Part shown: in pieces, positions 17,787 to 31,725 of the stretch | Position numbering within the stretch: position 1 is the first letter of the stretch | Layout: every line of letters starts with the position of its first letter | From: Polaribacter sp. | Lineage (GTDB): Bacteria; Bacteroidota; Bacteroidia; Flavobacteriales; Flavobacteriaceae | Length of the DNA: 64,000 nucleotides | Direction of reading: 5' to 3' | NCBI GenBank assembly: GCA_018663625.1 | Contig: JABJPX010000075.1 | Location: forward strand, 1 to 64,000 | Notes under the pieces: model-generated | Told to the model about the DNA's origin: nothing | The model's database searches: none | Seen by the model: only the letters and a program-made list of their open reading frames with translations | Translations under genes and position numbers: made by a program

Positions 17787-17787
17787 G

Positions 17788-17861
17788 AGCCGATGGAGGG
17801 ACTCGAACCCACGACCTGCTGATTACAAATCAGCTGCTCTAGCCAGCTGAGCTACATCGGC
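17788..17861 (-). tRNA. tRNA-Thr (anticodon TGT)
   Basis: On the - strand the acceptor stem is GCCGATG/CATCGGC; the anticodon stem CTGAT/ATCAG holds loop TTGTAA-type sequence with anticodon TGT; the T arm has GGTTCGAGTCC. The discriminator is T and CCA is not encoded. It lies downstream of the phrB operon. Confidence 0.95.
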
Positions 17862-17949: not shown

Positions 17950-19257
17950 TTAGGTTCTATTCAATGCTTCTTTATAGGTTGTTAAACAGCGTTCTCTTGC
18001 CATTTTATGATCGACCATTTGAGCAGGGTAGGTAAGCTCTTGAAAATCAGGAACCCATTTTTTGATATAGGTCAGATCTTTGTCAAATTTCTGAATCTGA
18101 GTGGTTGGATTGAAGATTCTGAAATATGGAGCCGCATCTACACCACATCCGGCAACCCATTGCCAGTTTCCAACATTGCTAGATTGTTCGTAATCGTGCA
18201 ATTTTTCTGCAAAATAGGCTTCGCCAAAACGCCAATCGATTAAAAGGTGCTTGCACAAAAAACTCCCCACCAGCATGCGTACTCTGTTGTGCATAAACCC
18301 TGTTTGGTTGAGTTCTCGCATTCCTGCGTCTACCAATTGATATCCTGTTTCTCCAGCACACCACTTTTTAAATTCTTCTTCATTGTTTCTCCAAAGAATT
18401 CGGTCATATTGAGGTTTGAAACTGTCTTTAGTGGTATGTGGATAATGCCATAAAATTTGCATAAAAAACTCTCTCCAGATCAATTCTTTCAAAAAAACAA
18501 TATTATTGCTCTTCGAGGCTTTAGCAACCATTTCTCGAACACTTACTGTTCCAAAACGCAAATGTGTGCCTAATCTGGATGTACCGTCTTTTGCAGGGAA
18601 GTTTCGGGTTTCCTCATAAGCATCTATCAATTTGGGAGAAACTTTATAGGAAGCCACTTTTATGGTTGAGGGTTGAAATCCGAGATCACTAAGGCTTAAA
18701 AATGGGTGTTCAGTATTTTGCACCAATCCATCCAGTTTTTCTTCAGAAGGAAAAAATTGAATGCCTTTATGATGAAACGCTTCGAGCCATTTTTTGGAAT
18801 AGGGAGTGTATACTTTATAGGCAGTACCGTCTTTTTTTACAATTTCATTTCGCTCAAAAATCACTTGATCTTTGTAGGTTTTAAACGAGGTGTTTTTTGT
18901 CTCTAGAAAGGCTTTAATAGTTGCATCTCTCTGAAGTGCATAGGGTTCATAGTCATGATTTGTGAAGACCGTTTCTACGTTATATTTTTCTAGTAATTGT
19001 TTGTATATTTCGATTGGTTTTCCATGAAATACAGCCAAGCTAGTGCCAATTTCGTTCAATTGTGTATTGATATTTGCCAATTCCTGATGCAAAAAGCTTA
19101 CACGTGCATCATTGTCGGGCAATCGAGATAGGATGTCTTCATCAAAAATAAAGATTGGAAGTACTTTTTTACCGCTATTTAAAGCATGAAATAATCCGCA
19201 GTTATCGTTCAATCGCAAGTCTCTCCGAAACCAAAAAAGTTGTATCTGTTCTTTCAT
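17950..19257 (-). CDS. phrB: Class I deoxyribodipyrimidine photolyase
   Basis: Uses blue light and reduced FAD to split cyclobutane pyrimidine dimers. The 435-residue product has the N-terminal antenna-binding domain (LFWFRRDLRLNDNCGLFHAL) and the FAD domain with GTHLRFGTVSVRE, SSNVGNWQWVAG and the class I signature DAAPYFRIFNPTTQIQKFD. No Cys-rich cluster is present, so it is not the iron-sulfur type. It is the last gene of the second photolyase operon; its start overlaps the SRPBCC stop codon by one base. CPD specificity is inferred from family likeness. Confidence 0.93.
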   Translation of the reverse strand: MKEQIQLFWFRRDLRLNDNCGLFHALNSGKKVLPIFIFDEDILSRLPDNDARVSFLHQELANINTQLNEIGTSLAVFHGKPIEIYKQLLEKYNVETVFTNHDYEPYALQRDATIKAFLETKNTSFKTYKDQVIFERNEIVKKDGTAYKVYTPYSKKWLEAFHHKGIQFFPSEEKLDGLVQNTEHPFLSLSDLGFQPSTIKVASYKVSPKLIDAYEETRNFPAKDGTSRLGTHLRFGTVSVREMVAKASKSNNIVFLKELIWREFFMQILWHYPHTTKDSFKPQYDRILWRNNEEEFKKWCAGETGYQLVDAGMRELNQTGFMHNRVRMLVGSFLCKHLLIDWRFGEAYFAEKLHDYEQSSNVGNWQWVAGCGVDAAPYFRIFNPTTQIQKFDKDLTYIKKWVPDFQELTYPAQMVDHKMARERCLTTYKEALNRT

Positions 19258-19721
19258 TATTTGTAAGTTCCAAAAAGTTCAACTAACTTTTTCTGTCGGT
19301 AAGAAAATATTTCTTCCAATTTTGGTTTCACTAAAATAGGGTGTACGAGCTGCCCCAAAATTCCTAAGGGAACTTTGTAATCGATAATGTCTTCCATTTC
19401 TACGCCACCTTCAACTTCCTTTATAAAGTGCTTGTGATGCCAAAGTGCATAAGGTCCATACATCTGCTCATCTACAAAATATTTTTTTTCTTCAATATGT
19501 GTTATTTCAGAAACCCATTTGGTTTTAATGCCCAACAATGGAGTTACAATGTATTGAATGATTTGTCCTGTATATAAGGGCCTATCTATCGTTGAAATGA
19601 TATTAAAACTCATGTAATCGGGCGTGATGATTTTTAAGTTTTTGGGATTGGATAAAAAATCCCATGCTTCTTCTAAAGAAATAGGGAGCTTTAGTTTTTT
19701 GTGAAGGGTATAAATTTTCAT
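19257..19721 (-). CDS. SRPBCC (START-like) ligand-binding protein
   Basis: A 154-residue protein of the SRPBCC fold, the kind annotated as cell division inhibitor-like or ligand-binding: LPISLEEAWDFLSNPKNLKIITPDYM near the N-terminus and GPYALWHHKHFIKEVEGGVEMEDIIDYKVPLG in the middle, given here in pieces, are typical. The fold forms a hydrophobic cavity; the ligand is unknown. It has no signal peptide. It is wedged between TspO (no gap) and phrB (one-base overlap), and similar proteins accompany photolyase genes in other bacteria, so a pigment- or lipid-related role is possible. Confidence 0.8.
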   Translation of the reverse strand: MKIYTLHKKLKLPISLEEAWDFLSNPKNLKIITPDYMSFNIISTIDRPLYTGQIIQYIVTPLLGIKTKWVSEITHIEEKKYFVDEQMYGPYALWHHKHFIKEVEGGVEMEDIIDYKVPLGILGQLVHPILVKPKLEEIFSYRQKKLVELFGTYK

Positions 19722-20183
19722 TTAATTATGAATTAAAATATATAAATTTAACGAAGTGGCAATGCAAAGCCATATCATATAGGGGAGTAATAAATACTTG
19801 ATTGTTGTTTTTTTTTCACTTCCTTTAAAAAAGAAATAAAATACAATTGCGGTTAAAAGTAAAATATTAATAAGTGCGAGAAATACGAGGTGTTGATTGA
19901 AAAAAATGAAATTCCAACTGACGTTTAAAAAGACTTGAAGTCCATAAAATATTCTATTTCTTTGGGTGTTTTCACTTTGGTAAAGAATTCCTAAATAAAT
20001 AGAGAATAAGAGCATGATGGTGGTCCATGCAATTCCGAAGACAATTCCCGGAGGAGTCCATGGAGCTTGATTAAGTGTTGTGTACCAGAGAGAAGTAGGG
20101 CCACCATCCATCAACCAACTTCCAATTGCAAGTCCGCCAAAATTAATAAGTAAGAAAAGAAAGATGGCGCGGGTAATTTTCAT
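19722..20183 (-). CDS. TspO/MBR family membrane protein
   Basis: TspO is a five-helix membrane protein that binds porphyrins and sterols. The 153-residue product shows the family pattern: WYTTLNQAPWTPPGIVFGIAW with the conserved P-W-P motif, and GLQVFLNVSWNFIFFNQHLV, plus five hydrophobic segments spread over the whole length. It abuts the SRPBCC gene and follows the DUF6435 gene by 6 bases. In a photolyase operon it fits handling of light-sensitive porphyrins, which is an inference. Confidence 0.9.
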   Translation of the reverse strand: MKITRAIFLFLLINFGGLAIGSWLMDGGPTSLWYTTLNQAPWTPPGIVFGIAWTTIMLLFSIYLGILYQSENTQRNRIFYGLQVFLNVSWNFIFFNQHLVFLALINILLLTAIVFYFFFKGSEKKTTIKYLLLPYMIWLCIATSLNLYILIHN

Positions 20184-20360: not shown

Positions 20361-20843
20361 TTAATATCTTAAGTGTTTAGTTATTTTGGAGCTAAATGGT
20401 TTGGTAATGGAAAAGAAATAATCGATTAATTTTCCTTCAGGATCGATCAAGTATTTTTGAAAATTCCATTTTACCGAAGAACTTTTCTTTCCATTCAAAC
20501 TTCTCAACGTTAACCATTCGTATAATGGATGCTGTTCACTCCCTTTTACATCTATTTTTTCAGTCATTAGAAATGAAACACCATAGTTTACCTGACAAAA
20601 ATTTTGAATTTCATCTGCATTTCCGGGTTCTTGTTTTCCAAATTGATTGCAAGGGACTCCAATAACGATTAAATTATTTTTGTAGGTATTGCTCAATTTC
20701 TCTAAGCTTTCGTATTGTGGTGTAAATCCACATTTTGAGGCAACATTCACGAAAAGTACGTGTTTGCCCTTAAATTCAGATAAATCAATTGCTTTTCCTT
20801 GCAAATTTCTTATCTGAATGTCATAGAATGATGTTCTTGCCAT
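20361..20843 (-). CDS. Glutathione peroxidase-type thiol peroxidase
   Basis: Reduces hydrogen and lipid peroxides, in bacteria often with thioredoxin as donor. The 160-residue product has the peroxidatic cysteine at Cys38 in NVASKCGFTPQY, the catalytic Gln in GVPCNQFGKQEPG and the Trp-Asn pair in VKWNFQKYL. The active site uses Cys, not selenocysteine. It lies 3 bases behind the SDR gene and before the DUF6435 gene, in the second photolyase operon, consistent with defence against photo-oxidative damage. Confidence 0.94.
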   Translation of the reverse strand: MARTSFYDIQIRNLQGKAIDLSEFKGKHVLFVNVASKCGFTPQYESLEKLSNTYKNNLIVIGVPCNQFGKQEPGNADEIQNFCQVNYGVSFLMTEKIDVKGSEQHPLYEWLTLRSLNGKKSSSVKWNFQKYLIDPEGKLIDYFFSITKPFSSKITKHLRY

Positions 20844-20846
20844 TTT

Positions 20847-21530
20847 TTATAATTTGAAACTTACAATACCACAGTCCATTTGAAAAATCTGACCGGATAT
20901 TGAGCTTGCGCTTTCTGATGTTAAAAAGGTAGCCATGTCTGCTACTTCTGCTGGATTTAAGAATTTTTTAAGAGGATGACGTTCTGTAATGCTCTCAATC
21001 ATTCTTTCATTTCTTAATAATTTTGAGGCTAAGTCGGTGTCGGTAACCGTTGGAGCTATTGCGTTGACTCTTATAGTTGGTGCCAATTCAGCACCTAAAG
21101 ATTTTACCAAACCTTCAACACCCGATTTTGCAGCTGCTACACTAGCATGATAGGGCATCCCTAATTTTGATGCAACGGTACTAAATAAAAGTATAGACGG
21201 GGTATTTCCTCTTTTTAATAAAGGAAGGTATTGTTGAATTGCTTTAACAGCTCCTACAACATTGATTTCGAAGTCTGCTCTGAAATCATCTAGTTTGAGG
21301 CGTGAAATAGGTTTTAAATTGATACTTCCGGGGCAGTATATTAAAGTATCTACAGCGTCTAGCTGCGGTAATTCATCGGATAATATGTCGCAATTATAAT
21401 GCGTTAAATTTTCATGCGTTAGCGAAGGAGCAGTTCGGCTAAGGTTTATGATGTTATTTTTTTCTATTAAAGAAGCGATGATCGCTTTTCCAATTCCTTT
21501 ACTTCCGCCAATCACTAAAATTTTTTTCAT
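20847..21530 (-). CDS. SDR-family protein lacking the catalytic tyrosine
   Basis: A 227-residue short-chain dehydrogenase-like protein. It has the nucleotide-binding motif GGSKGIGKAI (residues 8-17), Ser117 in the expected catalytic position and Lys135, but the position of the usual YxxxK tyrosine is Val131 (YHASVAAAK). The C-terminus SGQIFQMDCGIVSFKL is typical. Such Tyr-less SDRs are known as a subgroup; whether this one is a reductase, uses Tyr127, or is a non-catalytic sensor is unknown. It sits between the 71-residue protein gene (7-base gap) and glutathione peroxidase. Confidence 0.88.
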   Translation of the reverse strand: MKKILVIGGSKGIGKAIIASLIEKNNIINLSRTAPSLTHENLTHYNCDILSDELPQLDAVDTLIYCPGSINLKPISRLKLDDFRADFEINVVGAVKAIQQYLPLLKRGNTPSILLFSTVASKLGMPYHASVAAAKSGVEGLVKSLGAELAPTIRVNAIAPTVTDTDLASKLLRNERMIESITERHPLKKFLNPAEVADMATFLTSESASSISGQIFQMDCGIVSFKL

Positions 21531-21537
21531 AATACGT

Positions 21538-21753
21538 CTAAGGTCTTCCTTTCAAACGCTTTTCAATTTTTTGTTTTACAACTGTCAAGCGTTTCATGTA
21601 ATCCATTATTTGTGGATCTTTATCTAATTTATAAACTTCATTGAGCTCTAATATTAAGGCTTTTACCTCTCTAGATGCTACAATTCGATCACTCGTTGTT
21701 TTGAATGAGAATTTTCTAGTTTCGAATTCTACTGCTTTTTCTGCTAATGTCAT
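21538..21753 (-). CDS. Small helical protein, tandem paralogue B
   Basis: A 71-residue charged protein starting MTLAEKAVEFETRKFSF and ending KQKIEKRLKGRP. By eye about 50 of 71 positions are identical to the upstream 74-residue protein, so the two arose by local duplication. It is predicted to be helical and cytoplasmic, with no signal peptide, Cys or His cluster. The family is not one I can name; it resembles short hypothetical proteins of Flavobacteriia. It precedes the SDR gene by 7 bases. Confidence 0.75.
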   Translation of the reverse strand: MTLAEKAVEFETRKFSFKTTSDRIVASREVKALILELNEVYKLDKDPQIMDYMKRLTVVKQKIEKRLKGRP

Positions 21754-21829
21754 TATATTTATTTTTCGATATTGATGTAATTTTCGAATATAAATATAAA
21801 AGTTAGAAAAGCAATATAAAACTGAATTT

Positions 21830-22054
21830 TTATGATGTTAAAGGTTTTCCCTTTAAACGCTTCTCGATTCTTTGCTTTATTACCGTAAGCCGCTTCATGA
21901 TGTCCATGATGTTCGGGTCCTTGTTTTTTTTGAAAACTTCATTCAAACTTAAAATCAAATCTTTTGCTTCTCTAGCCGCCATAATTCGGTCACTAGTCGT
22001 TGGAAATCTCATCTTCCTTTTTTCGTATTCTAATGCTTTTTCAATTAGTTCCAT
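21830..22054 (-). CDS. Small helical protein, tandem paralogue A
   Basis: A 74-residue protein starting MELIEKALEYEKRKMRF and ending KRLKGKPLTS, paralogous to the next gene. Shared invariant stretches are TTSDRI, KDP, MKRLTV and EKRLKG. Function unknown. A 76-base gap separates it from paralogue B and a 125-base gap from the TIGR03643-type gene upstream, so it may have its own promoter, but I see no good TAnnTTTG box in those gaps. Confidence 0.75.
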   Translation of the reverse strand: MELIEKALEYEKRKMRFPTTSDRIMAAREAKDLILSLNEVFKKNKDPNIMDIMKRLTVIKQRIEKRLKGKPLTS

Positions 22055-22179: not shown

Positions 22180-22455
22180 TTATCTTTTTGAAATTCCGTT
22201 ATTGGAGATTGATCTCTGTCTCGTACACTTAAACCTTCCTTTTTCGAAAGTTCTTAATTTTTCATGCTTTGTTTTTCTTCCCTGAACTCTTTCTCTCCAA
22301 AGTTTAAAACTTTTCAATTTCATTTGGTTGCGCATTAAGTTGATCACTTCCTGCTCTTTTAATCCAAATTGGTATTCAATGGCTTCAAAAGTAGTTCTGT
22401 CCTCCCAAGCCATTTCAATGACTCTATCGATGGCTATGTCCTCTAATTTTATCAT
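22180..22455 (-). CDS. TIGR03643 / DUF2805 family protein
   Basis: A 91-residue protein whose first 60 residues (IAIDRVIEMAWEDRTTFEAI, YQFGLKEQEVINLMRNQMK, FKLWRERVQGRKTKH) match the TIGR03643 (DUF2805) family, which looks like a small helix-turn-helix or RNA-binding-type domain. Family members often neighbour photolyase or cryptochrome genes, as here. Its ATG overlaps the stop of the upstream 141-residue gene (ATGA, 4 bases). The last 30 residues are basic and less conserved. Confidence 0.82.
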   Translation of the reverse strand: MIKLEDIAIDRVIEMAWEDRTTFEAIEYQFGLKEQEVINLMRNQMKLKSFKLWRERVQGRKTKHEKLRTFEKGRFKCTRQRSISNNGISKR

Positions 22456-22877
22456 TCGTAAAAAGCGTAATTTTTATCGTTCTCAATTTTCAAATCCGTT
22501 AGTTTTTCGATAAATGATTTGTTTTCCTTTAGCAATTTGTTATTCGCAAACTTTACAAAATTACCTTGTGCATAAATGCTGTAACCATTTGTTTTGTAGG
22601 TGTGAAGTTGGTAATATGGAATTGCCCAACTATACGCATTTAGCCCCTTATTGATATGTACTAAAATTCCTTTTTCGCGCAATTCAATATTTGCATAATT
22701 AATGTCAGATACAGTATTCATCACCTTTTGAAAGCCTTCACTCACGCTAGATACAATCATTCTCTTAGATCCAACACCCTTTCGTCTGATCGCTTCAAAA
22801 AAAGAATATGAAGGGCCTATTAGATCATTGATAATCCTTGCGGTCTCTTTGTTTGTGTATGTTGTATTTACAATCAT
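22452..22877 (-). CDS. Uncharacterised protein, first gene of the second photolyase operon
   Basis: A 141-residue protein of unknown function. No catalytic motif, signal peptide or membrane segment is seen. The centre (ANIELREKGILVHINKGLNA, YSWAIPYYQLHTYKTNG) alternates hydrophobic and polar residues like a PH-type beta barrel, which is only an impression. It is the first gene behind the shared-motif promoter (22895-22940) and is translationally coupled to the TIGR03643-type gene. The promoter lies 17 bases upstream, giving a leader of roughly 10 bases. Confidence 0.75.
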   Translation of the reverse strand: MIVNTTYTNKETARIINDLIGPSYSFFEAIRRKGVGSKRMIVSSVSEGFQKVMNTVSDINYANIELREKGILVHINKGLNAYSWAIPYYQLHTYKTNGYSIYAQGNFVKFANNKLLKENKSFIEKLTDLKIENDKNYAFYE

Positions 22878-22894: not shown

Positions 22895-22940
22895 CAAAGG
22901 TACAAAATGTTTAACGTTTTACGATAATGATTAGACAAAA
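22895..22940 (-). promoter_or_regulatory. Promoter P2 with shared regulon motif
   Basis: On the - strand: TTTTGT, 9 bases, ATCGTAAA, A, CGTTAAACATT, T, TG, then the -7 box TACCTTTG (22895-22902). It aligns without gaps to promoter P1 at 31466-31511, 37 of 46 positions identical. A standard -33 TTG is missing; the conserved block occupies that place. It drives the operon from the 141-residue protein toward phrB. Confidence 0.75.
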
Positions 22941-22977
22941 ACATTAAAATTGTACTACATCATAACTGAACATTTGT

Positions 22978-24483
22978 TTAATCGCTTTGGAGTAGCTTGT
23001 TTCGGTCGGTTATGGTGTGTTTTTTGAGAATTCTAAAACTTTCTGATCGTACTTGTGGATTCTTTTTCAAATTCCAGAGAATATCACTTGCTTTTTTTCT
23101 ATTCTCTTTAATATCAACAATCGGTTTCGGATAGTCGATGCCCAATTCAAAATTGTTAAACTGCATATCCAAAGGAGTCATTAGGTAAGGCTCATGAATA
23201 AAGTTAATTGGCAAATTTGCCAATTCGGGACACCATTTTTTTATGAAAACGGCATTCGTATCATGCTCAATACTGTTTTTTACAGGACTATAAATTCTTA
23301 AATTATTGATACCAGTTTCTCCAGCTTGCATTTGTATTTGTGGAAAATGAATTCCAGGTTCAAAATCTAAAAACATTTTTGATAAATGCGAAGTTGCTTC
23401 TTGCCAAGGTTGCCATAGGATGTGCGTAAAGAAGGAAACGAGCATGGCACGCATTCTAAAATTTAAAAAACCAGTTTCATTTAAACAGCGCATACTCGCG
23501 TCTACCAAAGGAAACCCTGTATTTCCTTTTTCCCATGCAGTTTTATAGGATTCGGAGATACTCTTTTTAAGCTTGTGATAGCCTTTGTTAATACTCGCTT
23601 CTTCCATGGTATGTTCCATTTCAAATTTCTGAATAAAATGTGCTTGCCATCGCAATCTTGAAATAAATGCTCCCAAATGTTTATCCCCTTTTTTTTCAGA
23701 TTTTAGCTGTGTCGCTTTTTGAAAAACCTCTCTGATCGATACATTTCCCCAAGCAATATAAGGAGATAATCTACTCGAACTCGTTCTTGATTTTTCGGGT
23801 TTAGAAATATTAAATAAATACGCTTTATGTCTTTCCTCAAAGAAAGAATTTGCATATTTCCAAGCGGTAGTAGTTCCTCCTTTTTGAAAGATTTGTGATG
23901 TTTTTGTTTTTAAATCCGTACAATTAAAAACCTTTGATATTTCCGCTATTTCAGCAACCGTTATCAATTGATTTTTTTTCGGTTCAAAAGAGCATCTTTC
24001 ATTATGCATGTATCGATTCCAGTTTTCAAACCATTCGTCTCTATTTAATAAACCTCTTAAGACCCCATTGTTAGTGCTTTCAGTCCATTCAATCGAGTTG
24101 TTTTTGCAATACCTTTTAAAATATTTGTCTCTATTGTAGGTGATTAAAAGTCCCGTTTCTTGATGCGAATAAACATGCGCTATTTGAAAAGAATTCTGCA
24201 ACTGGTTAAAAAACGGAATTACTTCTGAATTTACCGATAAAACCTGCGTGTTGTGTTTTTTTAATCGGACGTTTAGGTTTTCTAAAGATTGTTTTATAAA
24301 AATCCAGTGTCGCTCATCATAATGCCTGTCGTTTCTCAGAGAGTCTTCGAAAATATAAGCAAACAGTACACGATTTTCCGATGCCAGTGAATTGGTGATG
24401 GCCTCGTTGTCATCCAACCGTAAATCTCGTTTGAGCCAAACAACTTGTATGGTTTCTTTATTAGTATTCATTTGGATTTGCAA
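22978..24483 (-). CDS. Photolyase/cryptochrome family flavoprotein
   Basis: A 501-residue protein with the N-terminal photolyase domain (VVWLKRDLRLDDNEAITNSL) and the C-terminal FAD domain (SRLSPYIAWGNVSIREVF, GFPLVDASMRCLNETGFLNF, QMQAGETGINNLRIYSPVKN). It differs from the class I enzyme at the NWQWVAG-DAAPYFR region, where it has AGETGINNLRIYSP, so it belongs to another photolyase subgroup; repair or signalling function is open. It ends the first operon. The start is ATG at 24483 or the ATG at 24471; it overlaps the iron-sulfur photolyase gene by 23 or 11 bases. Confidence 0.87.
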   Translation of the reverse strand: MQIQMNTNKETIQVVWLKRDLRLDDNEAITNSLASENRVLFAYIFEDSLRNDRHYDERHWIFIKQSLENLNVRLKKHNTQVLSVNSEVIPFFNQLQNSFQIAHVYSHQETGLLITYNRDKYFKRYCKNNSIEWTESTNNGVLRGLLNRDEWFENWNRYMHNERCSFEPKKNQLITVAEIAEISKVFNCTDLKTKTSQIFQKGGTTTAWKYANSFFEERHKAYLFNISKPEKSRTSSSRLSPYIAWGNVSIREVFQKATQLKSEKKGDKHLGAFISRLRWQAHFIQKFEMEHTMEEASINKGYHKLKKSISESYKTAWEKGNTGFPLVDASMRCLNETGFLNFRMRAMLVSFFTHILWQPWQEATSHLSKMFLDFEPGIHFPQIQMQAGETGINNLRIYSPVKNSIEHDTNAVFIKKWCPELANLPINFIHEPYLMTPLDMQFNNFELGIDYPKPIVDIKENRKKASDILWNLKKNPQVRSESFRILKKHTITDRNKLLQSD

Positions 24484-25993
24484 TTATGTGCGCTGCTTTT
24501 TCTTTTATTTCAAATAATTTTTCTGCAGGAATCTTTCGCAGCAAACTGTACATCATTCCCATTCTAAAATTTCCAGAAAGTTCTTCCTTTTTGTCGTCTA
24601 AAAAATTCCAATACAAGCTATTAAATGGACATGCATCTTTGGTCGTCTTTTCTTTTTTGTTATAATGACAGCTATCGCAATAATTCCCCATTTTATGTAC
24701 ATAACTTCCACTAGAAATATAAGGTTTTGTTGCTATTTTTCCGCCATCAGCAAATTGACTCATTCCTCGTGTATTTGGGAGTTGTACCCATTCTACTGCA
24801 TCGGCATAAATGCCCAAATACCAGGCGTCTACTTCATCTGGATTGGTTTGTGTTAGCAATGCATAATTCCCAGTAATCATTAAACGTTGTATATGATGCG
24901 CATAACTGTTGTCTAGCGAATTGTTGATTGCATTTTTTAAACAATTCATCTTGGTATTCCCTGTCCAATAAAAATCAGGCAATTTATTGGTATTGTTTAA
25001 AGCGTTTAGTGTTTTATAGTTGGGCATTAATGCCCAATACATCCCTCGCATGTATTCTCTCCAGCCTAAAATTTGCCGAATAAAACCTTCTACTTGTGAA
25101 ATTTCAATGGTAGCTTTTGGGTCTCGATACGTTGCCAAAGTTTTAGCAATTACTTCCTTGGGAGAAATTAATTTGATATTCATAGCAAACGAAATTCTTG
25201 CATGATACAAATAGATTTGATTCGTGTGCATTGCATCTTGGTAGTCACCAAAATGGACCAATAAATGTTCGCAAAAATATTCCAATTGTTCAAGTGCTTG
25301 CTCTCTGCTTATGGGATATTCAAAATATTTTGGGTTGATTTTTCCAATGGTTTTTATGCCTGCTTTCTGGATCTCTTCACAAATAATGACTACATTATTA
25401 TCAAAACTTTTAAAAGGAGGGACCAATGTATTTTCCTTCCATTTTTTTCGATTGTTTTTGTCATAGTTCCATTGCCCGCCTTCTGGTTGCGCATTGACAG
25501 TTAATATTTGATGTTTTTTTCTCATATTTCTATAAAAATTTTCCATCAAAAATTGCTTTTTACCTTCAAAAAACACTCCTAAATCTTCTCTTTTTGTATA
25601 AAAGTGCTCAGTGTCAGTAACCGCGTTTTCTATCGTTAACGTGCCGCAGAAGTCTTTTAGTTGTTTGTCTAAACGATATTCATCGGGTAGTAAGTATTCA
25701 AATTTATCAGCATTAAACTGTTCGATTTGTTGTGTCAGGTTTTTGGTTAAAGCGTGTGTGTTTTCGGGAGCTAATATGTTTAGATACTTCACCCTATGTC
25801 CATCTTTAATTAAACCGTCAGCAAAATTTCTCATGGCAGCAAAAAAACCTGCAACTTTTTGAATGTGGTGCGTTATGTAGTCTGTTTCTTGACGCATTTC
25901 AAACAAACAATATAAGATGTTATCGTCTTTTTCTTGAAACCAAGAATGCGAGCTGTTTAATTGATCTCCAAGAACTAATCGAACTATTTTCAT
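24461..25993 (-). CDS. Iron-sulfur photolyase/cryptochrome (6-4 photolyase PhrB type)
   Basis: A 510-residue protein of the FeS-BCP group, whose studied members repair 6-4 photoproducts with FAD, a lumazine antenna and a 4Fe-4S cluster. It begins KIVRLVLGDQLNSSHSWF, as expected. Four cysteines (351, 439, 442, 455) have exactly the spacing (88, 3, 13) recalled for Agrobacterium PhrB cluster ligands. The His-rich lesion-site region YAHHIQRLMITGNYALL is intact. It lies 3 bases behind the DASH gene and overlaps the next photolyase gene. Confidence 0.93.
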   Translation of the reverse strand: MKIVRLVLGDQLNSSHSWFQEKDDNILYCLFEMRQETDYITHHIQKVAGFFAAMRNFADGLIKDGHRVKYLNILAPENTHALTKNLTQQIEQFNADKFEYLLPDEYRLDKQLKDFCGTLTIENAVTDTEHFYTKREDLGVFFEGKKQFLMENFYRNMRKKHQILTVNAQPEGGQWNYDKNNRKKWKENTLVPPFKSFDNNVVIICEEIQKAGIKTIGKINPKYFEYPISREQALEQLEYFCEHLLVHFGDYQDAMHTNQIYLYHARISFAMNIKLISPKEVIAKTLATYRDPKATIEISQVEGFIRQILGWREYMRGMYWALMPNYKTLNALNNTNKLPDFYWTGNTKMNCLKNAINNSLDNSYAHHIQRLMITGNYALLTQTNPDEVDAWYLGIYADAVEWVQLPNTRGMSQFADGGKIATKPYISSGSYVHKMGNYCDSCHYNKKEKTTKDACPFNSLYWNFLDDKKEELSGNFRMGMMYSLLRKIPAEKLFEIKEKAAHIIANPNEY

Positions 25994-25996
25994 ATG

Positions 25997-27307
25997 CTAA
26001 AAAAGGTGATTTTGTAACCATTTATTTTGATACTGATTGTCTGGGTCATAGCGTTCTGCTTGACGTTCTATATTGAATTTACGATCTCTAGGGTCGTTGC
26101 CAACTCCCGATATATACAGCCAGTTTCCGTAGTTTGAATGCACATCATAATCAATCAGCATCGATTCAAAGTAAGCGGCACCGATGCGCCAATCTAATAA
26201 GAGTTCTTTTGAAAAGTAGGATGCAACATTTTGCCTACCTCGATTGCTCATAAATCCAGTTGCTTTCAATTCAATCATATTCGCGTTTACAAACGGTGCA
26301 TTGGTTTGACCGTGGATCCATTTCTGAACCAACTTTTCCTCCGACTTCCATTCATAGTGTTTTTCTAAAATTCCATCAATCTTAAATAAAGCATTCCCAT
26401 GTTTCAATGAAATGAATTTGAAGTAGTCTCTCCAAATCAACTCAAAAATCAACCAATATGTAGAATCATTTGCTCCATTTTCAGTTTCATATTCTTTAAT
26501 CTTCCAATAAATAGTTTTCGCCGAAATACTTCCATTTGCTAACCATGGAGAAAGCTTTGAACTATAATCGGTGCCAATCAATCCATTCCGGGTCTGTTTG
26601 TAAACGCTTAGTTTTTTAGATTCAAAAAAGTAATAGTCCATTCTTTTTAACGCCTCACTTTCTCCTCCATGAAATGGAAAAGCTGATCTGGGATCTGTCT
26701 TTACTTCTGAATACCCCAATTCCTGTAGGTCTGGAAGCTTCGTGTTGTTTACAATGCGGTTCGATACTTCTTTGTGTACACTGTTACTTTCTGATCGTAT
26801 TGATGCATATTTTTCTACCTTTTTCCTGAAGTTTGTAAAGACAGCGGGTATCGATTTAAGATCCATATTGATGTCTTCAGGATGGTATAAAAACTGATCA
26901 TAGGAATCGGTGATTGTACATTCATCCGTGAGTTTAGAGGCTACTTTTTTAAAGGTACCTACTTCCTCTGAAGTCCATTCTTTTTGGGTGAAAATCTCTT
27001 TTACGAGATGCGTTTCACAAATCTTAGGAATGACCACTTCTGGAAAATCAAAATAGGTAAGGAGTGTGATGTTTTTTTGTGCTAAGTGTTCTTTTAAATC
27101 GCGCACCGTTTCAACTAAAAAATTTGCTCTATAACGTTCAATTTTTTTAAAACCAAAAAGATTTCTTTCAAATATATGTTTGTCAAAAACATAAATAGCA
27201 ATTACTTGCTCGTGTTTTTCAAATGCCAATTCGATGGATTTATTGTCTTGAACTCTTAGGTTATTTGTAAACCATATTAATCCTGTTGATTTTTGTTTCT
27301 TCTGCAT
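25997..27307 (-). CDS. DASH-family cryptochrome
   Basis: A 436-residue flavoprotein related to photolyases; DASH proteins repair dimers in single-stranded DNA or act in light signalling. The N-terminus [20 protein letters not shown] and the DASH signature [20 protein letters not shown] with [13 protein letters not shown] near the C-terminus identify it. Its start codon lies 31 bases inside the DUF2256 gene. It precedes the iron-sulfur photolyase by 3 bases. Length is slightly short for the group, with no C-terminal extension. Confidence 0.93.
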
Positions 27308-27417
27308 CTTTCACTACAATATTTTACGTTTTCCCAGTTTTTTTCCCATTTTTTTCTCCAGCTGTAAGGTTTTTCGCAGACCGTACATATTTTTTCGGGT
27401 AAATGTTGTTTTTTCAA
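27277..27417 (-). CDS. DUF2256 zinc-ribbon miniprotein, TTG start
   Basis: A 46-residue ORF on the - strand (TTG at 27415-27417, TAA at 27277-27279) begins [20 protein letters not shown] and contains CxxC (Cys11, Cys14) and CxxxC (Cys34, Cys38) pairs, a typical zinc ribbon, with basic and Trp-rich sequence between. This is the DUF2256 pattern, a family often fused to or beside cryptochrome genes. It starts 3 bases after the upstream SDR stop and overlaps the DASH gene by 31 bases, so translation is likely coupled. No ATG is available. Zinc and nucleic-acid binding are inferred. Confidence 0.85.
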
Positions 27418-27420
27418 AAG

Positions 27421-28845
27421 TTATGGTTTAGAAATTTTATCAATCATTCCGTTAAAAATAAACCAATGAAAAGGGGCTACCGAATACCAGTATAGCCTTC
27501 CTGGCAATCCCTTTGGTCGAAATGTTGCTGTTTGATATAAGATTCCGTCTTCAATTTTAAATTCCAACCATGCTTCTCCGGGCAATACCATTTCTGCATA
27601 TAGAAGTAATTTCTGATTTGCTTTATCGGCATAAATTACACGCCAAAAATCCAAAGCATCTCCTGCATTTAATTCTGTTGGATGTCTTCTTCCTCTTCGC
27701 AAACCAGCACCCCCAAAAAATTGATCCATAAACCCTCTTACTTTCCACAGAAAAGTGCCATAATACCAACCTGTTTCTCCGCCAATTGCCCAAATTTTAT
27801 CCAATGATTTTTCTCCATCTACAATTTTCCGACGTTTTAAATCTCGAAAACAACCGTACTTTGGTACATTAATGAATTCATGGACATAGTTCTTTAGTTT
27901 TCCACTACTGATGTAAGAATCTTTCCAACTGGAAATAATACTATTTTGTTTTATTTTAACGAATGCAAATTCAACTGCCTGTTTGTAGGTCATTGGATTT
28001 ACTTCTAATACTTTATTAATAGTACTTCGGTTTCCAATCACTTCTACTCCCATCGAATTTACCAACGAATTGGCTAATTTGTAGGAGGTGGAGGTAACAA
28101 AATACAACCAATAGGAAGAAAGTTTTGGAGTCATTACCGGCACTGTTAAAATCCATCTTTTCAATCCTCGAACTTCTGCAAATTGCAAAAGCATTTCTTT
28201 GTAGGTCATGACTTCTGGGCCAAAAACATCAAAGGATTGATTGTACAATTCTTTCTTGTTCAATGCTTTGTGTAAAAAAGACAATACATCACGGATGCCA
28301 AGAGGTTGAGTTTTCGTATTCAGCCACTTTGGTGCGACCATTATTGGTAGTTTCTCAACAAGATCTCTAATAATTTCAAAGGATGAACTTCCAGATCCGA
28401 CAATAATACCCGCCTTAAAAGTAGTTAAAGCATAGACTTCGGAAGACAAGGTTTTTTCTACATTTTTTCTCGAAAGTAAATGTTTCGATAACTTGGTGTC
28501 ATTGGTAATTCCGCTTAAATAAATAACCTGCTTCAAGGCAGTTTTTTCAGCAAAACGTTTAAAGTTAAAGGCACATTTCTCTTCCAATACATGAAACTCC
28601 TTTGCAGAATTTGACATGGAATGAATTAGGTAATAGGCGCTATCAATATCCTTTGGAATTTTGTCTAAGCTTTTGTAGTCTAAAAAATCAATTTCAACAA
28701 GAACAATATTTTTACGATCTCTAAAATAATTTTTAGCTCTTGCCTTGTCTCGTACAGCACAAACAACGGTATGGCCGTCGTTTAGCAACAACGGAATTAA
28801 CCGTTTGCCAATATAGCCTGTTGCTCCTGTAACGAGAATTTTCAT
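27421..28845 (-). CDS. SDR-family protein with DUF2867 domain
   Basis: A 474-residue protein with an N-terminal NAD(P)-binding domain (ILVTGATGYIGKRLIPLLL, then YLIHSM and KQVIYLSGI) of the NmrA/YbjT-like atypical SDR type and a C-terminal DUF2867 domain from about residue 320 (GETGWYYGTFLWKVRGFMDQ, GDALDFWRVIYADKANQKLL). Membrane anchorage is not obvious. Substrate unknown. It lies between the flavin reductase gene (12-base gap) and DUF2256 (3-base gap). Homologues accompany photolyase genes in light-responsive clusters of other bacteria. Confidence 0.88.
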   Translation of the reverse strand: MKILVTGATGYIGKRLIPLLLNDGHTVVCAVRDKARAKNYFRDRKNIVLVEIDFLDYKSLDKIPKDIDSAYYLIHSMSNSAKEFHVLEEKCAFNFKRFAEKTALKQVIYLSGITNDTKLSKHLLSRKNVEKTLSSEVYALTTFKAGIIVGSGSSSFEIIRDLVEKLPIMVAPKWLNTKTQPLGIRDVLSFLHKALNKKELYNQSFDVFGPEVMTYKEMLLQFAEVRGLKRWILTVPVMTPKLSSYWLYFVTSTSYKLANSLVNSMGVEVIGNRSTINKVLEVNPMTYKQAVEFAFVKIKQNSIISSWKDSYISSGKLKNYVHEFINVPKYGCFRDLKRRKIVDGEKSLDKIWAIGGETGWYYGTFLWKVRGFMDQFFGGAGLRRGRRHPTELNAGDALDFWRVIYADKANQKLLLYAEMVLPGEAWLEFKIEDGILYQTATFRPKGLPGRLYWYSVAPFHWFIFNGMIDKISKP

Positions 28846-28857
28846 GACATTTTTAGT

Positions 28858-29475
28858 TTATTTTTTTGGTCTTTGGTAAGATAATTGTTTTTTAAATGTT
28901 GGAATCGCATAGGTATCCAATCCGTTAATTGCGGCAACTTTCCCGATAGAAAGATCGATCAATCCATCATCTTGTAAAAGTGCATCCTGAATATAGAGTT
29001 CCTCAATTTGTGCAACAATTAGCATTACATTGTTTGAAGGTACTGGTATTTCTTCAATAAATTTCATGCTCATTTGAACTGGAGATCCCTTTACAAAAGG
29101 TGCTTTAAAGGCCCCTTTAAATTCTTCCTCTAAACTCGTAATATCAAATTCAGAAACGTTTTCTGGATATTTCGCCGAAGTATGATGTGCGTCTTCTATA
29201 ATTTCTTCATAAATATGATTGATGGTAAATACACCACTTTCTTTTATGTTTTTATAGGTGTCTCTAGGAACCGTTGTAGGTCTCAGGATAAAACCCAATG
29301 TTGGGGGGTTAGAGCCTAAGTGAATCACGGAGCTAAAAACTGCAACATTGGAAACTCCTTCATCAGAAATTGTACCTAAAAGATTCGCAGATTTAAATCC
29401 AGAACAACTGTTAATTAAATTTATTTTAAAAATCTTCTCTAAGTTGTCGATGTCCTCTCTTTGATAAAAAGCCAT
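28858..29475 (-). CDS. Flavin reductase-like FMN-binding protein
   Basis: A 205-residue protein of the flavin-reductase split-barrel family. The N-terminal SCSGFKSANLLGTISDEGVS and the following SNVAVFSSVIHLGSNPPTLG, then GFILRPTTVPRDTYKN and HHTSAKY, are family features that bind FMN. The electron donor and substrate are unknown; supplying reduced flavin to the neighbouring flavoproteins is conceivable but not shown. Its ATG overlaps the ABC1 kinase stop by one base. Confidence 0.88.
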   Translation of the reverse strand: MAFYQREDIDNLEKIFKINLINSCSGFKSANLLGTISDEGVSNVAVFSSVIHLGSNPPTLGFILRPTTVPRDTYKNIKESGVFTINHIYEEIIEDAHHTSAKYPENVSEFDITSLEEEFKGAFKAPFVKGSPVQMSMKFIEEIPVPSNNVMLIVAQIEELYIQDALLQDDGLIDLSIGKVAAINGLDTYAIPTFKKQLSYQRPKK

Positions 29476-30785
29476 TAATAGTTATTAAAATTGTTAATTT
29501 TCACATTCGTTGCTTTCAAGTCATGCATTAAGTTATACAAGCCAAAAAAGGTTCTGTTAATATAAATAAAATGTTTGGATCCTCTGTTTCCGTTCATGTT
29601 TTTCAATTCAGAGCTTTTGGCATATTTTGCACCTAAGTCAGAAATTCGTCCAAAGAAAGTATCATCAGAAAAATCGAATTCTTCTCCATGAAATGGTTGT
29701 GTAAATAAACTCAACATTTCGTGAAACATTGCTCTAAAAAACACCAACTCCTCTTTCGAATCGTCTGCTCTAAGAATTTCTAATTCGTATAATTTTTTTT
29801 CAAAAATAACAGGATCTGCAATGCTTTCGGGTTTCGCTAATTCGAAATAAGGAATGTAAAATTTTTCAGGAATTGTTTTCATGCAACCAAAATCGAGGGC
29901 AATCAAATCAGTATCCTTAGAAACTAAAAAATTCCCTGGATGTGGATCTGCATGTACTTTTCGTAGATTGTGAATTTGATGCATGTAAAAATCCCACAAG
30001 GCTTGGCCTAATTTAGTTGAAACTTCAGGATCCTCGTTGTGCGCTGAAAATTCTGAAAGGTGATCTCCTTTCATCCAATCCATTGTAATGATTCTGTCAG
30101 AAGAATATTCTGAATAATAGTTAGGAAATTTTAAACTTGGAATGTGCTTGCATTTTTCAACAATCTCCTTGCTTTGCTCAATTTCTAAGATGTAGTTAGT
30201 TTCTTCCGTTAGTTTGTCTTCAACCTCTTTAAAATATTTGTCAGAGTCTTTTCCTCGAATGTTAAACATCTTTATCGCAATCGGTTTTACCAATGCCAAA
30301 TCTGATGCAACACTTTCAGCAACGCCTGGGTATTGAATTTTAACCGCAAGTGTCTTACCGTCCTTTTCAGCTTTGTGTACCTGACCAATACTGGCTGCAT
30401 TTACTGAGGTTAAATTAAATTTATCAAAGATATCATTCGGGTTTTTTCCAAAGTATTTTTTGAATGTTTTAGTTACCAATGGAGGAGAAAGTGGGGGTAC
30501 AGAGAATTGTGCCAAAGAAAATTTTTCTACATAAGCAGCAGGAAGAATGCTCTTTTCCATACTTAGCATCTGCGCAACCTTCAATGCACTTCCTTTTAAT
30601 TGCTTTAGGCCGTCATAGATGTCTTCAGCATTGTTTTCATTAAGTCTTGATTTAGCATCTACTTCGTTATTAACAAGTTTGTCACCGTAATATTTTAAAT
30701 AGTTCACACCAACCTTTGCACCCGTTGTTACTAGTTTTGAAGCACGTTGGATTTTTGATGTTGGTATTGAGTCTAATGTTTTCAT
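29475..30785 (-). CDS. ABC1/UbiB/COQ8-like atypical kinase
   Basis: A 436-residue member of the ABC1 family, atypical kinases or ATPases linked to ubiquinone biosynthesis and lipid handling. The Ala-rich nucleotide loop (NAASIGQVHKAEKDGK), the VKIQYPGV Lys motif, and catalytic HADPHPGNFLV and DFG-type IALDFGCMK are all present. The family motif KxGQ is here KVAQ (residues 69-72). No C-terminal membrane helix is seen. It lies 5 bases behind the TetR-fold gene and overlaps the flavin reductase gene. Its client protein or lipid is unknown. Confidence 0.9.
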   Translation of the reverse strand: MKTLDSIPTSKIQRASKLVTTGAKVGVNYLKYYGDKLVNNEVDAKSRLNENNAEDIYDGLKQLKGSALKVAQMLSMEKSILPAAYVEKFSLAQFSVPPLSPPLVTKTFKKYFGKNPNDIFDKFNLTSVNAASIGQVHKAEKDGKTLAVKIQYPGVAESVASDLALVKPIAIKMFNIRGKDSDKYFKEVEDKLTEETNYILEIEQSKEIVEKCKHIPSLKFPNYYSEYSSDRIITMDWMKGDHLSEFSAHNEDPEVSTKLGQALWDFYMHQIHNLRKVHADPHPGNFLVSKDTDLIALDFGCMKTIPEKFYIPYFELAKPESIADPVIFEKKLYELEILRADDSKEELVFFRAMFHEMLSLFTQPFHGEEFDFSDDTFFGRISDLGAKYAKSSELKNMNGNRGSKHFIYINRTFFGLYNLMHDLKATNVKINNFNNY

Positions 30786-30790
30786 CGTTT

Positions 30791-31444
30791 TTATTTTTGC
30801 ATCATTTTTTCTTTGAATAAGAATTTTCCAAAGTCAATAATGCTTTTCAATGGTTTAATGTTTAGTAAATCGAAACTTGTGTTGACCGATTTTTCAATAA
30901 ATATGTCTGTTTTTTCAAATGAAGAAGAAGTATCGTCCAACCAGAATTTCATGGTCACTAAAAGCTGAACCCATGCTGATTCTTGCAAAGCTTTGTGCTG
31001 AAATTTTTCTATCTGATCTTGTTGGATGTCCAATGTTTCAATATCTAAATGATCAATAAACTCTTTGAAGTGTTTGTGAAAACCTTTTAAGCTTTGTAAA
31101 CTTTTAAGGTTGTTTTTTTTATTGAAAGCGTAAACAACATAGCTTCTGTTTGCAGTTAGTAGTTCGAAAAATGTAAAATAGAAACTCAGTAATTTGTTTC
31201 TGGCATCATAATCTTGATACGCTTCGCTTTTAGAAAGTAATTGCAATGTATTTTCAAAAAAAGCTTCAAACACAGCTCCTTCGAGTGCTTCAAACGAACC
31301 GAAAAATTCATAAAAACTAGCCTCTTCAAAATTATTCTCTTTTGCGAAACTAAATACAGATTTTGGTGGATGGTCGTTTTCTAAAACGAATTCCATAAAC
31401 ATTGATATTAAATCTTGCTTTTTAACGGTTTTTTTTCTTGCCAT
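30791..31444 (-). CDS. TetR-fold protein, first gene of the first photolyase operon
   Basis: A 217-residue all-helical protein with a TetR-type N-terminus: FSFAKENNFEEASFYEFFGS followed by FEALEGAVFEAFF occupies the helix-turn-helix. The recognition helix is unusually acidic (Glu where repressors carry Ser, Lys or Arg), so DNA binding is doubtful. The C-terminal part has the ligand-pocket-like helices. It is directly followed by the ABC1 kinase. It may be a repressor of its own promoter or a COQ9-like partner of the kinase; COQ9 has the TetR fold and works with COQ8. Neither is proven. Confidence 0.8.
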   Translation of the reverse strand: MARKKTVKKQDLISMFMEFVLENDHPPKSVFSFAKENNFEEASFYEFFGSFEALEGAVFEAFFENTLQLLSKSEAYQDYDARNKLLSFYFTFFELLTANRSYVVYAFNKKNNLKSLQSLKGFHKHFKEFIDHLDIETLDIQQDQIEKFQHKALQESAWVQLLVTMKFWLDDTSSSFEKTDIFIEKSVNTSFDLLNIKPLKSIIDFGKFLFKEKMMQK

Positions 31445-31465
31445 AATGAATGATATTTATACCTA

Positions 31466-31511
31466 CAAAAATACATAATGTTTAACGATTTACGATTAAG
31501 TATAAACAAAA
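31466..31511 (-). promoter_or_regulatory. Promoter P1 with shared regulon motif
   Basis: On the - strand: TTTTGT, 9 bases, ATCGTAAA, T, CGTTAAACATT, A, TG, then the -7 box TATTTTTG (31466-31473). It is 37/46 identical to P2 (22895-22940) with identical spacing. It lies 22 bases before the start codon of the TetR-fold gene and should drive the first photolyase operon down to 22978. Confidence 0.75.
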
Positions 31512-31647: not shown

Positions 31648-31650
31648 AAG

Positions 31651-31725
31651 TCGGGGTGGCAGGATTCGAACCTGCGACCTCCTCGTCCCAAACGAGGCGC
31701 GATGACCGGGCTACGCTACACCCCG
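31651..31725 (-). tRNA. tRNA-Pro (anticodon TGG)
   Basis: On the - strand the acceptor stem is CGGGGTG/CACCCCG with discriminator A; the anticodon stem CCTCG/CGAGG holds loop TTTGGGA, anticodon TGG; the T arm has GGTTCGAATCC. It lies between the photolyase operon promoter and trxB. Confidence 0.95.

Follow-up and report, generated by a model that had tools for sequence, protein, structure and literature searches.

CarH and LitR proteins are described as repressing transcription in the dark (PMC9758184, PMC8156234, PMC9304148, PMC4557120), and roadblock repression has been described for them (PMC9758184, PMC8156234). Published CarH operators are composed of tandem 11-bp direct repeats, nAnnTnnACAn, with TnnACA as the monomer motif (PMC9304148, PMC8156234). 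The class II LitR proteins of Pseudomonas, PplR1 and PmlR2, are also repressors, and their operator is T(G/A)TACA-N12-TGTA(C/T)A, wherein one site lies over the -35 element and the other is located between the start site and the start codon (PMC9758184). The genes phrB, cryB and folE are light-inducible in P. putida, and the genes found nearby in P. mendocina include phrB, cryB, a short-chain dehydrogenase gene and folE (PMC9758184). According to one report, car and lit genes are absent from a Chryseobacterium with light-induced carotenoids (PMC7064467). Here we describe an inverted repeat that precedes two photolyase operons in a 64,000-nucleotide stretch of DNA from Polaribacter sp. (the window; contig JABJPX010000075.1) and that is a likely operator for a CarH homolog. 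There is no description of this operator or of a Bacteroidota CarH regulon in the titles and abstracts of open-licence literature, among the matches listed.

The conserved inverted repeat

The two promoter elements, P1 (31511..31466, minus strand) and P2 (22940..22895, minus strand), align without gaps and are identical at 37 of 46 positions, as stated in the original prediction made from the letters of the window. It had also been noted that no further copy was visible by eye in the window, and indeed the next-best 46-mer on either strand matches at only 27 of 46 positions. There are 100 TAnnTTTG anchors in the window, and the 98 that do not belong to P1 or P2 average 18.3 of 46 identities (standard deviation 3.0), which leaves P2 6.3 standard deviations out. 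A 20-bp core, ATCGTAAANCGTTAAACATT, occurs only at the two window copies when three mismatches are allowed (expectation 0.14), although at least two copies also arose in 2 of 100 shuffles. P1 and P2 are the sole good copies in the genome of origin (2.13 Mb, 96% complete). Matches to CGTAAANCGTTAAACAT with up to two mismatches are found there at P1 and P2 only (backwards control, 7), and GTTAAACATTNTGTANNTTTG with up to three mismatches yields 12 matches (control, 17) that are exact only at P1 and P2. The parts of these elements are as follows.

31479..31508, minus strand: P1 operator TGTTTAT-N16-TTAAACA (left half 31502-31508, with one mismatch; right half 31479-31485)
31466..31473, minus strand: P1 -7 box TATTTTTG (TAnnTTTG)
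31489..31496, minus strand: ATCGTAAA in the P1 spacer, common to P2 and not conserved among relatives
22908..22937, minus strand: P2 operator TGTCTAA-N16-TTAAACA (left half 22931-22937, with one mismatch; right half 22908-22914)
22895..22902, minus strand: P2 -7 box TACCTTTG
22918..22925, minus strand: ATCGTAAA in the P2 spacer, common to P1 and not conserved among relatives

The portion that is conserved throughout the Flavobacteriaceae is a rigid inverted repeat, TGTTTAA-N16-TTAAACA, which is located directly upstream of the -7 box TAnnTTTG and can also be written as TGTTTAAC-N14-GTTAAACA. The centres of the half-sites are about two helical turns apart, and the operator covers the place of a -33 element. 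That element is missing, as had been proposed, since neither P1 nor P2 has a TTG 17-23 nucleotides before the -7 TA; a TTG 33 nucleotides upstream falls inside the left half-site of both. The TTTTGT of the original prediction is part of the shared element, but it is really the left half of the inverted repeat. Of the block CGTAAA..CGTTAAACATT that had been considered conserved, only the right half-site is kept, paired with TGTTTAA 16 nucleotides upstream, and ATCGTAAA does not survive as a conserved core outside the two copies of this one genome.

The first genes after P1 and P2 encode a TetR-type regulator and a conserved protein of 141 amino acids (g141). Regions upstream of their homologs in other genera keep TTTTGTTTAAC and GTTAAACATTTTGTA..TTTG, and the spacer, including CGTAAA, is free to vary. 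In a first comparison, wherein 32 of 60 loci were measured on one strand only, TGTTTAA and TTAAACA are separated by N16 in 30 of the 32. Spacing was then counted for 80 loci from named relatives, including Polaribacter, Winogradskyella, Tenacibaculum, Arenibacter and Gelidibacter, using regions of at least 80 nucleotides (80 for TetR and 62 for g141, one of the latter without a left half). A right half matching at six or more of seven positions follows the left half at a distance of exactly N16 in 77 of 80 TetR and 54 of 61 g141 regions, and any other spacing occurs at most 3 times. Both operators are present in the closest named relative, isolate Ww290 (95% TetR identity), and CGTAAA is missing there. 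A symmetric variant, TGTCTAA-N17-TTAGACA, is found upstream of TetR at locus L240, wherein both halves are changed alike and the spacer is one base longer. No operator was found upstream of the 141-aa gene at loci L268, L284 and L287 (Tenacibaculum) and L312, where this gene may ride on the P1 run.

A column profile was made from 260 sites picked with at most one mismatch, and its half-site columns are circular because of this choice. The informative unselected columns are Y at position 7, R at position 22, and the T- and A-tracts; no third conserved repeat is evident in the profile. CGTAAA was rejected as a second conserved block: it is present in 5 of the 260 spacers, two of which are those of the genome of origin (shuffled expectation 0.6). 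Likewise, the CGTAAA core fails as a motif in its own right. With up to one mismatch it is found in 18 of 120 family genomes, the genome of origin included, and the 20 such loci in other genomes have no homolog of the window cluster genes within about 1.5 kb. With up to two mismatches there are 345 matches in 97 genomes of the same genus vs 557 for the backwards control.

Distribution of the repeat and its presence at carH

Representatives of the operator together with the -7 box, with up to two mismatches, are found in 103 of 199 sampled genomes of the family. The backwards control gave 4 matches, and a wrong-spacer control with N15 matched in 2 of the 199. The scan for further copies that had been suggested as a check places the element mostly before photolyase-cluster genes, and does so in many genera. 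We also chose 40 further sites by hand, most of them at some distance from TetR and g141, and labelled their targets by hand: 22 precede photolyase-cluster genes, 4 TetR-ABC1 and 8 KASIII. The idea of a regulon is supported by the recurrence of photolyase-cluster genes; the remaining 6 sites (L162, L165, L173, L178, L180 and L193) precede none of the recurring genes. Across the class Bacteroidia, 12 of 296 genomes match (3 control matches), 9 of which lie outside the family; in 6 of these 9 the match is beside a photolyase-cluster gene or CarH.

The 8 KASIII targets are divergent from htpG (both named by eye), and KASIII comes after TetR-ABC1 at L189-L191. The operator separates htpG (Hsp90) from a divergent KASIII or TetR-ABC1-KASIII run at L157, L169, L174, L175, L179, L185, L187, L196 and L189-L191. 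At L194 the operator precedes a GTP cyclohydrolase I (FolE)-like gene, as judged by eye, followed by a gene for glutathione peroxidase (GPX).

There are three MerR_1 matches in the genome of origin, and the only long one, G000:C8:1519-2409, is a CarH/LitR homolog. It has an N-terminal MerR DNA-binding domain (PF13411, E 5.4e-14) and a B12-binding helical domain (B12-binding_2; PF02607, E 2.9e-9). Its W-x9-EH motif and lower-ligand histidine (the H of ExHxxG) align with those of Thermus thermophilus CarH (5c8d/3whp), and residues W143, E153, H154 and H192 are invariant in 14 homologs. The best PDB matches of a structural model are also T. thermophilus CarH (E 4e-12), with a whole-chain TM of about 0.5 and a TMt of up to 0.72 for the B12 domain alone. 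The best NCBIfam match is the CarH equivalog NF052513, at 60.3 bits vs a cut-off of 400, and because this is far below the strict threshold we treat the protein as a homolog rather than an equivalog member. These features suggest a predicted adenosylcobalamin photoreceptor of the CarH/LitR class I type. Downstream of it lie an amine-oxidase-fold gene (crtI-like), a phytoene/squalene synthase gene (crtB) and a hydroxylase gene (crtZ-like), so that carH heads a crtI-crtB-crtZ operon. A short sigma-factor-like gene (ECF-type by eye; L200:907-1401, minus strand, contig C8) is divergent to carH-crtI-crtB-crtZ. In two Arenibacter genomes and one further genome (L243), the CarH gene adjoins the operon that follows the site.

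The same repeat is found at most of the carH promoters examined. In most of 72 such promoters the -7 box runs into TGTTTAA. Among the 62 with a left half of at least six of seven matches (the other 10 were left out), a right half matching at five or more positions is located at N16 in 54, and other spacings occur at most 12 times. The carH right half often reads ATGAACA and then contains the start codon. In the 55 genes that have asparagine after the start codon (55 of the 72 regions), AAC is used at codon 2 in 51, vs 294 of 867 later asparagine codons of the same genes and 29 of 106 second codons of other open frames. Thus, the start region of carH appears to be constrained as DNA, and not only as protein.

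CarH homologs are found in 161 of the 199 genomes. Sites and CarH occur together in 101, sites alone in 2, CarH alone in 60 and neither in 36 (Fisher p 3e-11, not phylogenetically corrected). For TetR the corresponding counts are 94, 9, 37 and 59. Among the 68 genomes without TetR, sites are found in 9 of 35 that have CarH and in 0 of 33 that do not.

Taken together, these observations suggest that P1 and P2 are the operators and -7 boxes of one light-response regulon, and that CarH is the likely binder, repressing in the dark and releasing in the light; we hold this combined interpretation to be probable, though by no means secure. Several observations weigh against it. An ATGAACA start codon provides five of the seven right-half positions by itself, an objection that is answered only in part by the codon-2 bias and by L222, L346, L349, L351 and L354, whose right half does not coincide with the start codon. 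The N16 half is missing in 8 of the 62 carH promoters. The carH promoter of the genome of origin is a poor match, resembling TGTCTAG-N17-TTGAATA by eye, and no N16 pair was found at it. The co-occurrence is weak evidence alone because CarH is so common, and genomes without any of the cluster account for much of the figure. Two genomes, G079 (81% complete) and G242 (73%), have sites and no CarH. Finally, among genomes with TetR, the repeat is absent from 3 of 5 that lack CarH and from 34 of 126 that have it, which is not significant (Fisher p 0.14). These three genomes, G059 (99% complete, one contig), G275 (99%) and G253 (87%), have no repeat above the shuffled level within 400 nucleotides upstream of TetR; the same is true of G014 and G007, which do carry CarH. 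With this count and these two genomes, we discarded repeat loss in CarH-less genomes as strong proof.

Genes downstream of P1 and P2

The extent of each operon was judged from strand and intergenic gaps. The run of genes behind P1 is as follows.

30791..31444, minus strand: TetR-type regulator (TetR_C_23), first gene after P1
29475..30785, minus strand: ABC1 atypical kinase
28858..29475, minus strand: flavin reductase-like protein
27421..28845, minus strand: NAD-binding protein with DUF2867
25997..27307, minus strand: cryptochrome DASH
24461..25993, minus strand: photolyase-related protein (DPRP), presumably of the 6-4-like subtype
22978..24483, minus strand: cryptochrome/photolyase, final gene of the run

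The run behind P2, which includes a 177-nucleotide gap before TspO, is as follows.

22452..22877, minus strand: conserved 141-aa protein (g141), no Pfam or NCBIfam match, first gene after P2
22180..22455, minus strand: DUF2805/TIGR03643 protein
21830..22054, minus strand: 74-aa protein, paralog of its 71-aa neighbour
21538..21753, minus strand: 71-aa protein, paralog of its 74-aa neighbour
20847..21530, minus strand: short-chain dehydrogenase (SDR)
20361..20843, minus strand: GPX
19722..20183, minus strand: TspO/MBR
19257..19721, minus strand: conserved 154-aa protein, no Pfam or NCBIfam match, which by eye we take to be SRPBCC-like
17950..19257, minus strand: DNA photolyase, final gene of the run

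The tandem paralogs of about 70 amino acids (21538-22054, minus strand) are about 70% identical and have no Pfam match; their homologs are preceded by the operator at L182, L186 and L195. The entire photolyase block is bracketed by a tRNA-Pro gene (31650-31725, minus strand) upstream of P1 and a tRNA-Thr gene (17787-17861, minus strand) behind the P2 run.

Mode of action and relation to known systems

The distance from the operator to the -7 box was determined for 79 TetR and 58 g141 sites. It is 5 nucleotides for 60 TetR sites, 4 for 15 and 9 for 4; for g141 it is 5 nucleotides for 40 sites, 4 for 7 and other values for 11. Overall the distance is mostly 4-5 nucleotides, with 3, 6, 9 and perhaps 14-15 also represented, the last of which may reflect wrong choices of the -7 box. 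In addition, at photolyase promoters the repeat occupies the -33 position, whereas at carH it is usually found beyond the -7 box in the downstream direction and overlaps the start codon. A rigid inner spacing, when the interval between repeat and -7 box is variable, is more in keeping with a roadblock repressor than with an activator bound in a fixed phase, and the position at carH fits the same mode. In the dark, B12-bound CarH would hold both half-sites and thereby block the access of RNA polymerase to the photolyase and cryptochrome operons, as well as to its own gene in most relatives. On illumination the cobalamin would be cleaved and CarH would let go of the operator, whereupon photolyases, cryptochromes, GPX, TspO and carotenoid genes would be expressed. 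From the sequence comparisons we infer this binding and repression, with light and B12 as the signals, and light probably switches the photolyase genes on via CarH. A light-transcriptome study of Dokdonia MED134, which we do not use as support, reportedly describes light-induced photolyase genes.

The activator or special sigma factor of the original prediction is the less likely mode, and positive control through the element, either by MerR-type activation or by an alternative sigma factor, seems improbable to us. It would accommodate the lack of TTG at the -33 place, the interval of 4-5 nucleotides that separates the site from the downstream -7 box of most targets, the ability of MerR proteins to activate (PMC8156234) and the sigma-factor-like gene divergent to carH. 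However, a palindrome is unlike a sigma-type bipartite element, and both the spacing pattern and the usual position downstream of the -7 box at carH argue for repression. Another possibility is that the repeat is bound by the TetR-type regulator encoded directly after P1, which would then control both its own gene and the photolyase operons. TetR proteins bind palindromes, almost every named relative has TetR as the first gene after the site, and 94 of the 103 site-bearing genomes encode it. It is nevertheless absent from the other 9 (8 of which are at least 90% complete), the site is absent from 37 of 131 genomes with TetR, and the repeat is present at carH as well; thus, this arrangement too is unlikely.

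We consider it rather doubtful that the repeat is bound by some other regulator that accompanies CarH and the photolyases. CarH and TetR were the sole candidates compared, the layout differs from published CarH operators, and CarH loss is no significant predictor of repeat loss, yet the repeat occurs with the same spacing at carH itself and the DNA-binding region of CarH is strongly conserved. That P1 and P2 are alike through chance or recent local duplication is very improbable. CGTAAA is present in both copies here and absent from the closest relative, and such an origin is possible for this block. It is refuted for the half-sites, because many genera have them at both loci, with the same spacing and the -7 box, around spacers that are unrelated.

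If CarH is indeed the repressor, a wider proposal, which we put forward tentatively and which might as readily prove wrong as right, is that B12-dependent CarH runs the whole photoreactivation toolkit in Flavobacteriaceae, and weakly in other Bacteroidia, through a head-to-head operator two helical turns apart, a geometry that the papers found do not describe for B12-CarH, and autoregulates through the start-codon half-site. Whether UV repair depends on light or is permanently on would in that case be set by the supply of B12. The repeat provides an exact, searchable operator for the light regulon of a large bacterial family along with its likely receptor, and makes testable both the joint B12 gating of UV repair and carotenoids and the binding of CarH to inverted as well as direct repeats.

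Among other described systems, the MerR-like protein VCA0056 of Vibrio cholerae is encoded beside phr and takes part in a blue-light response, but it acts with ROS and ChrR/sigma-E, and no such operator is described in the available portions of that paper (PMC5241685). The operators of class II LitR proteins mirror the present one in having two spaced half-sites and two positions, whereas T(G/A)TACA-N12-TGTA(C/T)A differs from it in both letters and spacing (PMC9758184). A full B12 domain is absent from these proteins, and PmlR2 has a LOV protein as its partner (PMC9758184). The folE-like target at L194, named by eye, recalls folE in the Pseudomonas LitR regulon (PMC9758184). There is also a resemblance to CarH and class I LitR proteins of T. 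thermophilus, Bacillus megaterium and Myxococcales, which have the same MerR helix-turn-helix and B12 domains with W-x9-EH and H ligands. They are likewise encoded beside carotenoid genes, and their operator lies over the -35 place (PMC8156234, PMC9304148). The half-site TAAACA fits the TnnACA motif of CarH (PMC9304148, PMC8156234). In contrast, CarH operators in print are direct repeats, and TGTTTAA-N16-TTAAACA does not conform to nAnnTnnACAn because its halves face each other 16 nucleotides apart, which must be added to the points against CarH as the binder. The main targets here also differ in being photolyase-cluster operons. The best reading is that of a known regulator with a new operator layout.

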